A DNA stretch of 64,000 nt from Haloarcula marismortui ATCC 43049 (lineage in GTDB: Archaea; Halobacteriota; Halobacteria; Halobacteriales; Haloarculaceae). A program made the translations under genes and the position numbers. The notes beneath the pieces were generated by a model that did not search any database, was not told the origin of the DNA, and saw nothing but the letters and a program-made list of their open reading frames with translations. Numbering within the stretch: position 1 is the stretch's first letter; each line of letters begins with the position of its first letter. Where the stretch lies: the NCBI RefSeq assembly GCF_000011085.1, contig NC_006396.1:62001-126000 (forward strand), given 5' to 3'. This document shows, one piece after another, positions 5,848-57,893 of the stretch.

Positions 5848-6783
5848 GTGACTCGGTTCCTTCTCTACGGCGGCAAGGGCGGCGTCGGCAAGACGACCGT
5901 GGCCGCGGCGACTGGCTATCGGCTGGCGACGGCGGGCCACGAGACACTCGTTGTCTCCACCGACCCCGCGCACTCGCTGGCCGATGCCGTCGAGACCGAG
6001 GTCGGCGGCGACCCGACGGAAATCCGGTCGGGGCTGTGGGGCGTCGAGGTCGATCCACAGACGGGTATTGACCGTTACCGGTCACTGTTCGAGGTGCTGG
6101 CGTCGGAATTTTCCGATGCCGGCATCCGGATGGACGAAGAGGAAATCGCTGACCTGTTCACATCCGGCGTAATGCCCGGTAGCGACGAACTGGCAGCCAT
6201 CGAGGGCATGGCGACGTACATCGAGAGCGACCGCTGGGACCGCGTGGTGTTCGACACTGCCCCGACCGGTCACACGCTCCGCCTGCTTGACCTCCCGTCG
6301 GTGATGGACCGCGGCGTTGCCACGGCGATGGACCTCCGGGACCAAGTTCGTCGGAAAGTCAACACTGCCCGGACGATGATGTTCGGCCCGATGGCGAGCC
6401 GGCGCGACGACGGCCCGGACGACTTCACCGAGATGCGCACGCGGATGGAACGGGTCGGCACAGTGCTTCGAGACCCCAAACAGACCGCGTTCCGGGTCGT
6501 CACGATTCCCGAAACGATGGCTGTCCGCGAGACGGAGCGGCTGGTCGCGAAGCTCCGCGAGTTCGACGTGCCGGTAACGACGCTGGTCGTGAACAAGGTC
6601 ATCGAGGACGCCGGCGACTGTCAGCGCTGTCAGGGGAAGCAGGCGGTACAGCAAGAGTCTATTGCCGCGCTTCGGGAGTCGCTCCCCGACCTTGACGTGT
6701 GGACGATTCCCGACCAGTCCGGCGAGGTGACTGGTATTAGCGCGCTGGACAGGGTTGCGGAGTCTCTGGTGGATGTGAAGTGA
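5848..6783 (+). CDS. ArsA/Get3-family ATPase (single domain, CxxC)
   Basis: 311 residues from the GTG at 5848. This start puts the deviant Walker A motif GGKGGVGKTT at residues 8-17, normal for the family, and an AT-rich box at about 5817-5826 is correctly spaced for a leaderless message. An upstream in-frame start at 5740 overlaps the previous gene and is rejected. Other motifs are VSTDPAHSLADA (switch I), DTAPTGHTLRLL (switch II) and GDCQRC, the CxxC that binds zinc in dimeric Get3. Eukaryotic Get3 delivers tail-anchored membrane proteins; bacterial ArsA energises arsenite export. No ars genes are nearby, so a Get3-like chaperone role is the better guess. Confidence 0.87.
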   Translation: MTRFLLYGGKGGVGKTTVAAATGYRLATAGHETLVVSTDPAHSLADAVETEVGGDPTEIRSGLWGVEVDPQTGIDRYRSLFEVLASEFSDAGIRMDEEEIADLFTSGVMPGSDELAAIEGMATYIESDRWDRVVFDTAPTGHTLRLLDLPSVMDRGVATAMDLRDQVRRKVNTARTMMFGPMASRRDDGPDDFTEMRTRMERVGTVLRDPKQTAFRVVTIPETMAVRETERLVAKLREFDVPVTTLVVNKVIEDAGDCQRCQGKQAVQQESIAALRESLPDLDVWTIPDQSGEVTGISALDRVAESLVDVK

Positions 6784-6800
6784 CCCGTAAAGACGAGCAT

Positions 6801-6922
6801 CCGCGCGAGCGAAGCGAGCGCGGTTCACCGGAACCGAACTTAGTGAGGTTCCAGCCTTTTTCGCCCACGTTTGTCAAGGAGTGGTGGCGAGCATCGCGAG
6901 CCACCCGACGATGAAAAAGGTG
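6801..6922 (+). repeat. Dispersed multi-hairpin element, copy A
   Basis: The element lies between the Get3-like gene and gltX. It contains three perfect 23-nt hairpins, each with a 6-bp stem and an 11-nt loop: 6801-6823 (stem CCGCGC, loop GAGCGAAGCGA), 6830-6852 (stem GGAACC, loop GAACTTAGTGA) and 6883-6905 (stem GGTGGC, loop GAGCATCGCGA). A second unit, 6855-6920, is bounded by perfect 8-bp inverted repeats CCTTTTTC/GAAAAAGG and encloses the third hairpin. A related copy lies at 46909-47001 on the minus strand. Both copies follow a gene's stop codon in the direction of transcription. A role in termination or 3'-end stability is plausible but unproven. Confidence 0.75.
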
Positions 6923-6963
6923 GTCCGACGGCGTTTTGACCCTCCCAGTCGCAGGTCCCGATA

Positions 6964-8703
6964 ATGGACGACGAGCTGCGAGACCGAATCACGGAGGCGG
7001 CGGAGACAAACGCCCTCCTCAACGCGGTCAAACACGATAGCGAGGCACAGGTCGGCGCAATAATGGGCCCGCTCATGGGCGAGAACCCGGAGTTCCGCGA
7101 GTACGGCGACGAGATACCCGGCGTTATCGCGCCGGTCGTCGAGCGGGTCAACGGGATGGACGCCGAGGAGCGCCGCGAGCGGCTGGCCGAACTCGCTCCG
7201 GAGAAACTCGAAGAGCTGGAGGCTGAGGACGAGGGCGAGGACCACCCACTGCCGGACCTGCCCAGCGCCGAGGAGTACGACACCGTCCGGATGCGCGTCG
7301 CGCCAAACCCCAACGGGCCGTGGCACATCGGCCACGCGCGGATGGCCGCTGTCGTCGGGACGTACAAACAGCGCTACGACGGGGAGTTCATCTGCCGCTT
7401 CGACGACACCGACCCCGAGACCAAGCGGCCGGATCTGGATGCCTACGACGCAATTCTGGACGCAATCGACTATCTCGGCTTCGAACCGGACGACGTGGTC
7501 AACGCCAGCGACCGCGTCGAGACCTACTACGAGTACGCTCGCAAGCTCATCGACAAGGGCGGGGCCTACACCTGCTCGTGCCCGCAGGGTGAGTTTTCGG
7601 ACCTGAAGAACAACGGCGAGGCCTGTCCCCACCGGGATAAGGACGCCGAGACCACGCGCTCGGAGTTCGAGGCGATGGTCGACGGCGAGTACGACAGCGG
7701 CGAGATGGTCCTGCGGGTCCGGACCGATATTACTCACAAGAACCCCGCGCTGCGGGACTTCGTCGCCTTCCGGATGGTCGACACGCCCCATCCACGCGAG
7801 GCGGCCGAGCAGTACCGCTGCTGGCCGATGCTGGACTTCCAGAGCGGGCTTGACGACCACCTGCTGGGTGTCACCCACATTATCCGCGGTATCGACCTGC
7901 AGGACTCCGCGAAGCGCCAGCAGTTCGTCTATGACTACTTCGACTGGGAGTACCCCGAAGTCATCCACTGGGGCCACGTCCAGGTCGACGAGTACGACGT
8001 GCCGCTGTCCACGTCAAGCATCGCCGAACTCATTGAGGACGGCGAACTGGCGGGCTGGGACGATCCGCGAGCGCCGACCGTCGCCAGCCTCGAACGGCGC
8101 GGCATCCGCGGCGAGGCCGTTGTCGATGCGATGATTCAGCTGGGCACGTCCACCTCGAACGTCGACCTGGCGATGTCCTCGATCTACTCGAACAACCGTG
8201 ACCTCATCGACGACGACTCGGACCGGGCGTTCTTCGTCCGGGACAGCGACGACCACGGTGGCCTCGTTGAGCGCCAGATCGTCGGCGGGCCGGACGCCGG
8301 CGAACCGCCGCTGCACCCGGACTACGAGGAGCGTGGCCGCCGCGAGATTCCGGTGACCAGCGGTGTCGTCGTCGAGGGTGACGACCTGCCAGACCACGGC
8401 GATCGTATCTGGCTCAAGGGCTACGGCTGCGTGCGACACACTCGCGACGCCTTCGAGTACACCGGCGACGATATCGACGCCGTCCGTGAGGAGGGCGTCG
8501 ACGTGATTCACTGGGCACCGGCTGACGGCCCAGCGCTCCGCCTCCGGACGATGGACGGCGACGTATCAGGCGTGGCCGAACCGGGACTGCGCAACTACGA
8601 CACTGACGACGTGGTGCAGTTCGAACGCATTGGCTTCGCTCGCCTCGACAAGGTTGCGGACGACTCGGATACGGAGTCCGTCGCGTACTTTACCCATCCC
8701 TGA
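6964..8703 (+). CDS. gltX: Glutamyl-tRNA synthetase (archaeal type, class I)
   Basis: 579 residues. The class I HIGH motif is in APNPNGPWHIGHARMA (about residue 118), followed by CRFDDTDPETKRPDL, the glutamate-binding region of GlxRS enzymes. The N-terminal ~90 residues are the acidic helical extension usual in archaeal GluRS, and the C-terminal part is the archaeal/eukaryotic beta-barrel anticodon-binding type. The enzyme charges tRNA-Glu and probably tRNA-Gln for later amidation. The KMSKS-equivalent loop reads VPLSTSSIAEL, with Ser where many archaeal enzymes have Lys. A TATA-like GCGTTTTGAC at 6930-6939 gives a leaderless start. It is the usual downstream neighbour of this isoprenoid block. 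Confidence 0.95.
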   Translation: MDDELRDRITEAAETNALLNAVKHDSEAQVGAIMGPLMGENPEFREYGDEIPGVIAPVVERVNGMDAEERRERLAELAPEKLEELEAEDEGEDHPLPDLPSAEEYDTVRMRVAPNPNGPWHIGHARMAAVVGTYKQRYDGEFICRFDDTDPETKRPDLDAYDAILDAIDYLGFEPDDVVNASDRVETYYEYARKLIDKGGAYTCSCPQGEFSDLKNNGEACPHRDKDAETTRSEFEAMVDGEYDSGEMVLRVRTDITHKNPALRDFVAFRMVDTPHPREAAEQYRCWPMLDFQSGLDDHLLGVTHIIRGIDLQDSAKRQQFVYDYFDWEYPEVIHWGHVQVDEYDVPLSTSSIAELIEDGELAGWDDPRAPTVASLERRGIRGEAVVDAMIQLGTSTSNVDLAMSSIYSNNRDLIDDDSDRAFFVRDSDDHGGLVERQIVGGPDAGEPPLHPDYEERGRREIPVTSGVVVEGDDLPDHGDRIWLKGYGCVRHTRDAFEYTGDDIDAVREEGVDVIHWAPADGPALRLRTMDGDVSGVAEPGLRNYDTDDVVQFERIGFARLDKVADDSDTESVAYFTHP

Positions 8704-46743: not shown

Positions 46744-46908
46744 AGAAGGAGTATCGGACGGGGAGTAATAAGCATCTCGTGAGAAACCAACGTGTGATAA
46801 CGACGGAGCCAGCGAGTTGTCGGCTGATTTGCCTCCGCGGTATCGATTACTGATATCTATTTGCCGTCGAGCAACTGCCCGGCAAGAATCGGCACGAACG
46901 TCCGCAAT

Positions 46909-47001
46909 CCACTTTTTTAGCTCGGGTGTACCTCCTGTGGTCGCGCACCACTCCGAAAAAACGTGGGCGAAAAAGTCGACCACTCACTCCGCTCGTGGTC
47001 G
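46909..47001 (-). repeat. Dispersed multi-hairpin element, copy B
   Basis: On the minus strand, two bases after the stop of the LOR/SDH-type gene, a 7-bp hairpin with 11-nt loop GAGCGGAGTGA lies at 46977-47001 (stem CGACCAC/GTGGTCG). It is followed by a unit bounded by ACTTTTT/AAAAAGT (46970-46976 and 46911-46917), which holds the hairpin GTGGT/ACCAC at 46937-46951. Shared sequence with copy A (6801-6922) includes CTTTTTCGCCCACGTTT and GGAGTGGTG. The boundary stem differs by a compensating pair (C-G in A, A-T in B). Confidence 0.75.
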
Positions 47002-56417: not shown

Positions 56418-57893
56418 TCAGTCTTCGCCCGCTGTCACCGATCCGGCACCACCGGGCCCCGTGGCCGGCTCTTCGCTGTCGGCTCGGTCCGCATAGACGA
56501 TCTGCCAGCCGGTCACCCCCATGAACAGGAGCACGAGCGGCGAGAGGAAGCCGAAGAAGTAGTACGGCGCGTATTCCAGCGTCGGGACGCCGAGCGTCCC
56601 GGCCATGAACAGTCCGCCGCTGCTCCACGGAATAAGCGCACTCGTCGTCGTTCCCGACGCTTCGATGGCTCGGGAGAGGTTCTGACTCTTGAGCCCCTGT
56701 TCGTTGTACAGATTACCGAGCGTCATCCCCGGCACCACGATGCTCACGTACTGCTCCGCCGCGAGAATGTTCATCGAGACGGCGGACACAGCGGTGACGC
56801 CCGTGAGGCTCGCAACGCTGTGGCAGAGTCGCCCGAGATGGTGGGAGAGCACCGCGAGCACGCCGGCCCGTTCAAGCAGGCCGCCCAGTGCGAGCGCGGC
56901 AATCGCAATCGTCACAATCCACGCGCCGCCGGTCAGGCCGCCGCTCTCTAAGAGTCCGTTTACGAGTTCCATGCCCGTCTCTGGGGCTGTCCCGGACTGT
57001 GCCGCCGACCACGCAGCGCCGAATCCGGTTCCCTGCACGAGCATTGCGGTCCCAACGCCCGCGAAGACACCTGTCCCGAGCGTCGGCAGGGCGGGGATGC
57101 CACGCAGTGCAAGCCCAAAGGTCACGATGACCGGCAAAAACACGAGCGGCGAGACGACGTACGTGCTCTCTATCGCCGCCTGGATTGACGCAACGCGGTT
57201 GGCGGGGATAGCCCCAGCCGCTCGCAGCCCGAGGCCGGCGTACAGGACGACGGCAATCGTGAACGCGGCGAGCGTGCCGGCCCGCATCGCGTTGATGTGC
57301 TCATACAGGTCCGTGTCTGTCACTGCTGCGGCCAGATTCGTCGTATCCGAGAGCGGGGACTGCTTGTCCCCCGTGTAGGCCCCGCTGAGAATCGCGCCGG
57401 CGGTCATCGGCTCTGAAATACCCAGTCCCGAACCGATCCCGATGAGCGCGACCCCGAGCGTCCCGGCCGTCGTCCACGAGGAACCAACGGCGAAGGAGAT
57501 TATTGCGGAGAGGATAGCTGCTACCGGGAGAAACACCATTGGCGTGAACAGTTCCAGCCCGAAGTACATCAGGCTTGGAATCGTGCCCGCCTGAATCCAC
57601 GACGCGATGAGCGCATAGACGGTGAACATGATGAGAATCACCCGCATTCCCATGAGCAGGCTACTGGCAATACCGTCGTACAGTTCCGACCACGAGAGCC
57701 CGAGGTGGTACCGTGCGAATAGGCCGGTGAAGGCAATTCCCCAGAACAGCGGGAACTGTGGGTCCAGATCGAAGGCAATGAGGCCCACGCTGAGGAACAC
57801 GATCATCCCCGCGATCGGCACGAGTGCAGCCCCCAATGATGGCCGTTCAGACGGGTCGATATCGTCGAACAGTCGGGGTTCGAACTCGACCAT
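56418..57893 (-). CDS. nhaC: NhaC-family sodium/proton antiporter
   Basis: 491 residues from ATG 57893, with about eleven to twelve transmembrane helices. NhaC motifs include AVGSSWTTAGTLGVALIGIGSGLGISEPMTAGAILSGAYTGDKQSPLSDTTNLAAAVTDTDLYEHI and MNILAAEQYVSIVVPGMTLGNLYNEQGLKSQNLSRAIEASGTTTSALIPWSSGGLFMAGTLGV. The charged residues in GDKQSPLSD and ILAAEQY are those usually important for ion exchange. It exports Na+ in exchange for H+, essential in a halophile. The C-terminal ~20 residues are polar and cytoplasmic. Confidence 0.93.
   Translation of the reverse strand: MVEFEPRLFDDIDPSERPSLGAALVPIAGMIVFLSVGLIAFDLDPQFPLFWGIAFTGLFARYHLGLSWSELYDGIASSLLMGMRVILIMFTVYALIASWIQAGTIPSLMYFGLELFTPMVFLPVAAILSAIISFAVGSSWTTAGTLGVALIGIGSGLGISEPMTAGAILSGAYTGDKQSPLSDTTNLAAAVTDTDLYEHINAMRAGTLAAFTIAVVLYAGLGLRAAGAIPANRVASIQAAIESTYVVSPLVFLPVIVTFGLALRGIPALPTLGTGVFAGVGTAMLVQGTGFGAAWSAAQSGTAPETGMELVNGLLESGGLTGGAWIVTIAIAALALGGLLERAGVLAVLSHHLGRLCHSVASLTGVTAVSAVSMNILAAEQYVSIVVPGMTLGNLYNEQGLKSQNLSRAIEASGTTTSALIPWSSGGLFMAGTLGVPTLEYAPYYFFGFLSPLVLLFMGVTGWQIVYADRADSEEPATGPGGAGSVTAGED

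Follow-up and report, generated by a model that had tools for sequence, protein, structure and literature searches.

The way in which archaeal transcripts end, and the part that RNA structure plays in it, are unsettled. A study on Haloferax reported that a T-stretch followed by C is a mapped signal of intergenic 3' ends, that this signal terminates in vivo, and that hairpins are found upstream of 503 3' ends (PMC7237163). Hairpins with a defined tip are also known in DNA. As DNA, GCGAAGC folds into a hairpin of extraordinary stability, whose GAA loop contains a sheared G.A pair (PMC6582339), and a Tm of 76.5 C was reported for a DNA hairpin with a 2-bp stem (PMC10527192). Tandem G:A pairs are likewise a feature of the k-turn, where they follow a 3-nt bulge (PMC6298567).

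We describe here a hairpin motif first noticed in a 64,000-nt stretch of Haloarcula marismortui DNA (hereafter the window). These hairpins look like an undescribed building block of haloarchaeal gene 3'-end formation, and sometimes of its remodelling. A hairpin with a defined tip near mapped stop signals makes the question of archaeal transcript ending testable, and its relevance to the 3' ends of RNA can be addressed by point mutants in GA/GA and GNA and by stem swaps. Moreover, its tie to duplicated gene and tRNA ends hints at a process that rebuilds 3' ends, and a natural, widespread GCGNAGC mini-hairpin would be of interest in structural biology.

Results

Hairpins of the window

The window is part of a 3.13-Mb chromosome (genome 4.27 Mb). 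A preliminary description had placed in it three consecutive perfect hairpins with unrelated stems and near-identical GARCNNNGYGA loops, and a fourth further along. All four are present at those positions, and the stems and loops listed below bear this out; the fourth lies on the minus strand, a point absent from that description. Each of the four is on the same strand as its upstream gene.

5848-6783, plus strand: upstream gene, GET3/ArsA-family ATPase
6796-6925, plus strand: composite 3'-end element, dispersed through Haloarcula
6801-6823, plus strand: GA-capped hairpin 1, CCGCGC/GAGCGAAGCGA/GCGCGG, starting 18 nt past the upstream gene's stop codon
6830-6852, plus strand: GA-capped hairpin 2, GGAACC/GAACTTAGTGA/GGTTCC, with a T5C tract 4 nt further on
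6857-6869, plus strand: TTTTTCGCCCACG tract, between hairpins 2 and 3
6883-6905, plus strand: GA-capped hairpin 3, GGTGGC/GAGCATCGCGA/GCCACC, the centre of a larger inverted repeat
6913-6923, minus strand: GAAAAAGGTGG, the opposite-strand T5 tract closing the composite element (from the sequence and the element consensus)
6964-8703, plus strand: downstream gene gltX, glutamate--tRNA ligase
46870-46901, minus strand: degenerate direct copy of the TIGR00300 gene 3' end, downstream of the element (better copies occur in relatives)
46962-46974, minus strand: TTTTTCGCCCACG tract, directly 3' of the fourth hairpin
46977-47001, minus strand: fourth GA-capped hairpin, CGACCAC/GAGCGGAGTGA/GTGGTCG, 2 nt past the TIGR00300 stop codon
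47004-48293, minus strand: TIGR00300 gene

Hairpins 1 to 3 had been taken as separate, consecutive hairpins. They turned out to be parts of one dispersed element of ~130 bp, in the order hairpin 1 - hairpin 2 - TTTTTCGCCCACGTTTTT - hairpin 3 - AAAAAGGTGG, where AAAAAGGTGG ends the element and is the opposite-strand T5 tract. A search of 32 Haloarcula genomes detected this composite element in every one, a single genome giving 28 matches (E<=1), and the fourth hairpin belongs to another copy of it. Hairpin 1 is the genome's best R1 match (E 3.8e-5). At both sites in the window, the element sits at a gene end, 2 to 18 nt from the stop codon. The tract TTTTTCGCCCACG has 7 copies in the same genome, each directly behind a hairpin, four of these being GA-capped and three having a perfect 10-bp stem.

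The closest relatives of gltX are from Haloarcula (92-96%), and the intergenic region preceding it is wholly different between Haloarcula species (L051-L063), a sign of rapid turnover. For example, L053 and L060 contain hairpin arrays, L051, L054 and L063 are without the element, and L052 has an apparent deletion that fuses hairpins 1 and 3. A second recurrent arrangement was also observed, in which TAGCGAGG-hairpin-CCTCG is followed by GCGAACGGC...GCCGTGAGC and GA/GA flanks a longer helix; its start is often at or near a stop codon (C8 sample, 120791-120846, L033/L141; G013 sample, 124811, 261348 and 348071).

Enrichment over decoy loops

Only 4 of the 34 loop matches in the window have stems of 6-7 bp, the other 30 having stems of at most 3 bp. 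Six haloarchaeal genomes (the present one, G001, G006, G013, G063 and G088) contributed 2.46 Mb, in which stems of at least 6 bp close 49 of 1633 GARCNNNGYGA loops versus 15 of 8446 decoys, a pool of eleven permuted or resized loops. The same contrast was repeated at 80 gltX loci across Halobacteria. Base composition as the source of the motif is ruled out by these decoys. An unsupervised census of 2x2 internal loops in intergenic hairpins, which made no assumption about the loop sequence, returned GA/GA in 65 of 218 cases, with the runner-up at 7; 57 of the 65 combine an inner helix of exactly 2 bp with a triloop. Of the 49 motifs, 41 are intergenic, in DNA of which 85% is coding. For the intergenic RNA as a whole, the fold z-score is only -1.45; the case is therefore built on the motif and not on overall stability.

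Structure of the cap

To refine the motif, only GA, seven free bases and GA were demanded together with a stem of at least 6 bp, and intergenic cases were retained. The motif consists of a sequence-free stem, a Y-R closing pair, tandem G.A, two base pairs, of which one covaries and one is C-G, and a GNA triloop. In this relaxed set, the stems are distinct in 39/48 and the closing pair is Y-R in 46/48; pair 3:9 is Watson-Crick in 48/51 (GC 24, AT 14, CG 10) and GT in 2, pair 4:8 is CG in 47/51, and the triloop is GNA in 38/48. A larger pool gave 113 Watson-Crick and 6 GT pairs at 3:9 among 121 cases; background unpaired loops have mainly CC, AC and TC at these positions. On the motif strand, the ratio of G.U to A.C is 12:6 inside the stems and 6:0 at 3:9. 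At orthologous loci (L299, L311 and L313), GA/GA is kept, while the stems have changed from CCAC/GTGG to CCGC/GCGG or the inner helix has lengthened to 6-7 bp.

Covariation at 3:9 and the GA/GA census back the earlier proposal of a specific fold whose loop is under selection and whose stem is free, with two corrections. Positions 3 and 9 do pair, but not within the R-Y limit first given: any Watson-Crick pair is used, CG as well as GC and AT. Similarly, the triloop stands, but it is mostly GNA instead of a free NNN, and Y-R nearly always closes the stem at the loop. Because of this closing pair and the pairing at 3:9, the tandem mostly reads Y-GA-R on both strands, a context that favours sheared tandem G.A. 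The tip of the motif, RCGNAGY and above all GCGAAGC, has the sequence of the GCGNAGC ultra-stable DNA mini-hairpin. Folding energies from the available models did not separate GNA from other triloops and were uninformative as to DNA versus RNA.

Distribution

A covariance model of 18 hairpins, whose own sequences match by construction because they were taken from loop-selected matches, gave 51 matches in the present genome, all of them on the 3.13-Mb chromosome; the remaining contigs, 1.14 Mb in total, gave none. Matches were obtained in 36 of 37 genomes of the same family. Across the phylum, the 7 genomes from the same order (the present one and members of its family included) have 6-45 matches each, and genomes elsewhere mostly have 0-3. 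The motif is abundant in Halobacteriales and rare in the rest of the phylum, in line with the earlier remark that one of its strings is often seen in haloarchaeal genomes. No Rfam family reached its gathering score in the window except for two tRNAs elsewhere in it, and the open-access literature searched yielded no description of the motif, including the string GAGCGAAGCGAG; the preliminary description had likewise known of none.

A candidate role at transcript 3' ends

Since gene calls relied on a home-made codon model and part of the motif pool was picked by the covariance model itself, the following counts are approximate: a T5 tract lies within 60 nt downstream of 36/142 motifs on the motif strand and of 4/142 on the other, and within 10 nt of 15 and 1, respectively; T5 is missing within 80 nt of roughly three quarters of them; 23 loci between tandem genes are sense and 27 antisense, with no orientation bias; and 18/142 motifs fall in divergent gaps. 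A sense-strand bias relative to neighbouring genes was suggested by loci of the present genome alone and was gone in the pool (23 vs 27). The preliminary description had named, as marks of a spurious motif, equal use of both orientations, location within coding regions, absence of stem pairing and a frequency expected from base composition; only the first is observed, and the other three are contradicted by the location between genes, the paired stems and the frequency. A stable hairpin accompanied by a T-run on the same strand is found in the composite-element class, at all 7 TTTTTCGCCCACG sites.

The motif may be a terminator or 3'-end hairpin with a stabilising cap that acts in RNA, a reading to which, judging from sequence, we give an even chance. 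The capped hairpin would be a modular part of short elements at 3' ends. In the nascent transcript it would fold fast and stably, in molar salt, and the cap could lock it beside the U-tract where the haloarchaeal RNA polymerase stops. The composite element, with T5 tracts on both strands, would then be a two-way transcription-end signal, and a structured 3' end would be left on the transcript. What the data show directly is the structure, its covariation, its lineage, the polarity towards T5, the position at Haloarcula gene ends and the change of stems with GA/GA kept; action in RNA, termination or protection, and the benefit of the cap are inferred.

Several lines of evidence argue for this role: enrichment controlled by decoys, the GA/GA census, covariation at 3:9, intergenic location, the hairpin preceding every TTTTTCGCCCACG, and the T5 polarity of 36 vs 4. 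In addition, GA/GA is retained at orthologous loci that otherwise change, and G.U exceeds A.C. It also agrees with the T-stretch and C signal and the upstream hairpins of Haloferax (PMC7237163). On the contrary, unbiased orientation, the scarcity of T5 and the presence of motifs in divergent gaps all argue against it, as do the GNA triloop, which is best known for stabilising DNA and not RNA, and folding energies that fail to discriminate.

Copies of gene and tRNA 3' ends

A direct repeat with a score of at least 40 spans 29% of the GA-capped hairpins (12/49 loci), whereas the figure is 0.5% for plain gaps and 1.4% where a gap holds another kind of perfect hairpin. In most cases one copy forms the 3' end of a coding sequence, often up to its stop codon, or of a tRNA, and the other lies outside and downstream. 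The tail copies range from 22 to 126 nt. The inserts, of about 50-250 bp, are without genes and too short for a recombinase. A tRNA lies within 300 nt of 8/49 hairpin loci (0.4 expected), and at tRNA sites GA-capped hairpins separate repeats of the T-arm and acceptor end. The association of hairpins with 3'-end copies and tRNAs suggests duplication or integration at 3' ends.

At the end of the TIGR00300 gene, Haloarcula species have an empty site (L306, L307, L309 and L312), a single unit, or three tails with units between them (L303 and L305). In L299, the displaced tail and the downstream DNA match the empty site of a relative at 103/107 positions, and the tail within the gene differs.

Additional examples were noted in passing. 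tRNA genes are followed by stray copies of their own 3' ends in L175:1356-1441, L220:2896-2968, L237:3916-3989, L259:7119-7194 and L288:9174-9258. Gene 3'-end copies lie beyond hairpins in L297-L313, L146 and L156 (the latter in the present genome), and in the G013 sample at 57425, 255487, 348071 and 353107. Such sites carry up to three tandem tails, and empty sites exist in relatives.

Discussion

The tail copies raise the possibility of a function at the level of DNA, in which the hairpins would act as single strands in duplication or integration at gene and tRNA 3' ends, in an attachment-site-like or strand-switching process that leaves a tail copy downstream. We regard this as possible but doubtful. 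It accounts for the unbiased orientation to genes, for a tip that is extraordinarily stable in DNA (PMC6582339) and for the tail copies themselves, that is, for the excess of direct repeats in which one copy is usually a coding or tRNA end, the proximity to tRNAs, the filled and empty sites with up to three tails at the TIGR00300 gene, and the displaced tail of L299. It is also in keeping with archaeal elements that integrate into tRNA and protein genes at their 3' ends (PMC6563490). Nonetheless, the direct 3'-end copy that an integrated element would have beyond the insert is present at the 12/49 loci and not at the remaining ones, so that ~75% of loci have no tail copy; copies of such variable length are unlike a fixed target-site duplication; neither an integrase of its own nor any other recombinase was identified with the gene-less inserts; and the restriction of all 51 model matches to the main chromosome is unlike the usual behaviour of mobile elements. 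The tail copies could alternatively have arisen by hairpin-driven local duplication or by recombination between species, and the latter could equally yield the L299 pattern. We tentatively consider that undescribed, gene-less mini-elements capped by GA-GNA might insert at, or duplicate, gene and tRNA 3' ends, each bringing a new tail and a two-way terminator and pushing the old tail downstream, such that these ends are repeatedly rebuilt.

It appears improbable that the motif is a selfish haloarchaeal repeat of the REP/BIME or MITE kind, with no host function and kept solely by the need of a transposase for the hairpin. Extragenic palindromes that are clustered, occur in both orientations and number dozens per genome would fit, as would the dispersed 130-bp unit and the many palindrome-bearing elements of haloarchaea (PMC3119063). 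REP and MITE, however, are sequence families, whereas 39/48 stems here are distinct and the copies are not alike over the whole palindrome, although those of the 130-bp Haloarcula composite are sequence-related. Compensatory changes at orthologous loci and the absence of matches from the non-chromosomal contigs also speak against it.

Least credible is the suggestion, prompted by tandem G.A beside a stem, of a kink-turn or kink-loop bound by L7Ae, a protein present in archaea, since its geometry fails: no 3-nt bulge precedes the G.A pairs, which form a symmetric 2x2 internal loop flanked on either side by base pairs, the covarying ones following.

With a capped 3'-end hairpin acting in RNA as our preferred reading, the motif can be set beside known systems. 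Bacterial REP/BIME are, like the motif, short, clustered extragenic palindromes with a stem mismatch near gene 3' ends, but REP elements keep the sequence of the stem, whereas the GA-capped motif keeps only the tip. Archaeal elements that have integrated at 3' ends span kilobases and encode integrases or casposases; the insert here, in contrast, is gene-less and about 50-250 bp. As here, such elements in tRNA and protein genes generate direct 3'-end repeats and displace the original stop downstream (PMC6563490). The PATE, MITE and SMR of haloarchaea resemble the motif in being short palindromic repeats without a transposase, but they are sequence families with defined ends, known from Haloquadratum, and tail copies of host genes are not described in the part of that source considered (PMC3119063). 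The T-stretch terminators of Haloferax volcanii are likewise intergenic, with a T-run followed by C and a hairpin at most 10 nt upstream of the 3' end; a GA/GNA cap, a free stem with a fixed tip, a two-way composite and tail copies go unreported in the portion of that study considered (PMC7237163). Finally, the d(GCGNAGC) mini-hairpins of Hirao and colleagues have the apical heptamer in common with the motif, but are known as synthetic DNA structures, whereas the motif is a natural genomic element that sets this tip on a tandem G.A platform (PMC6582339, PMC10527192).
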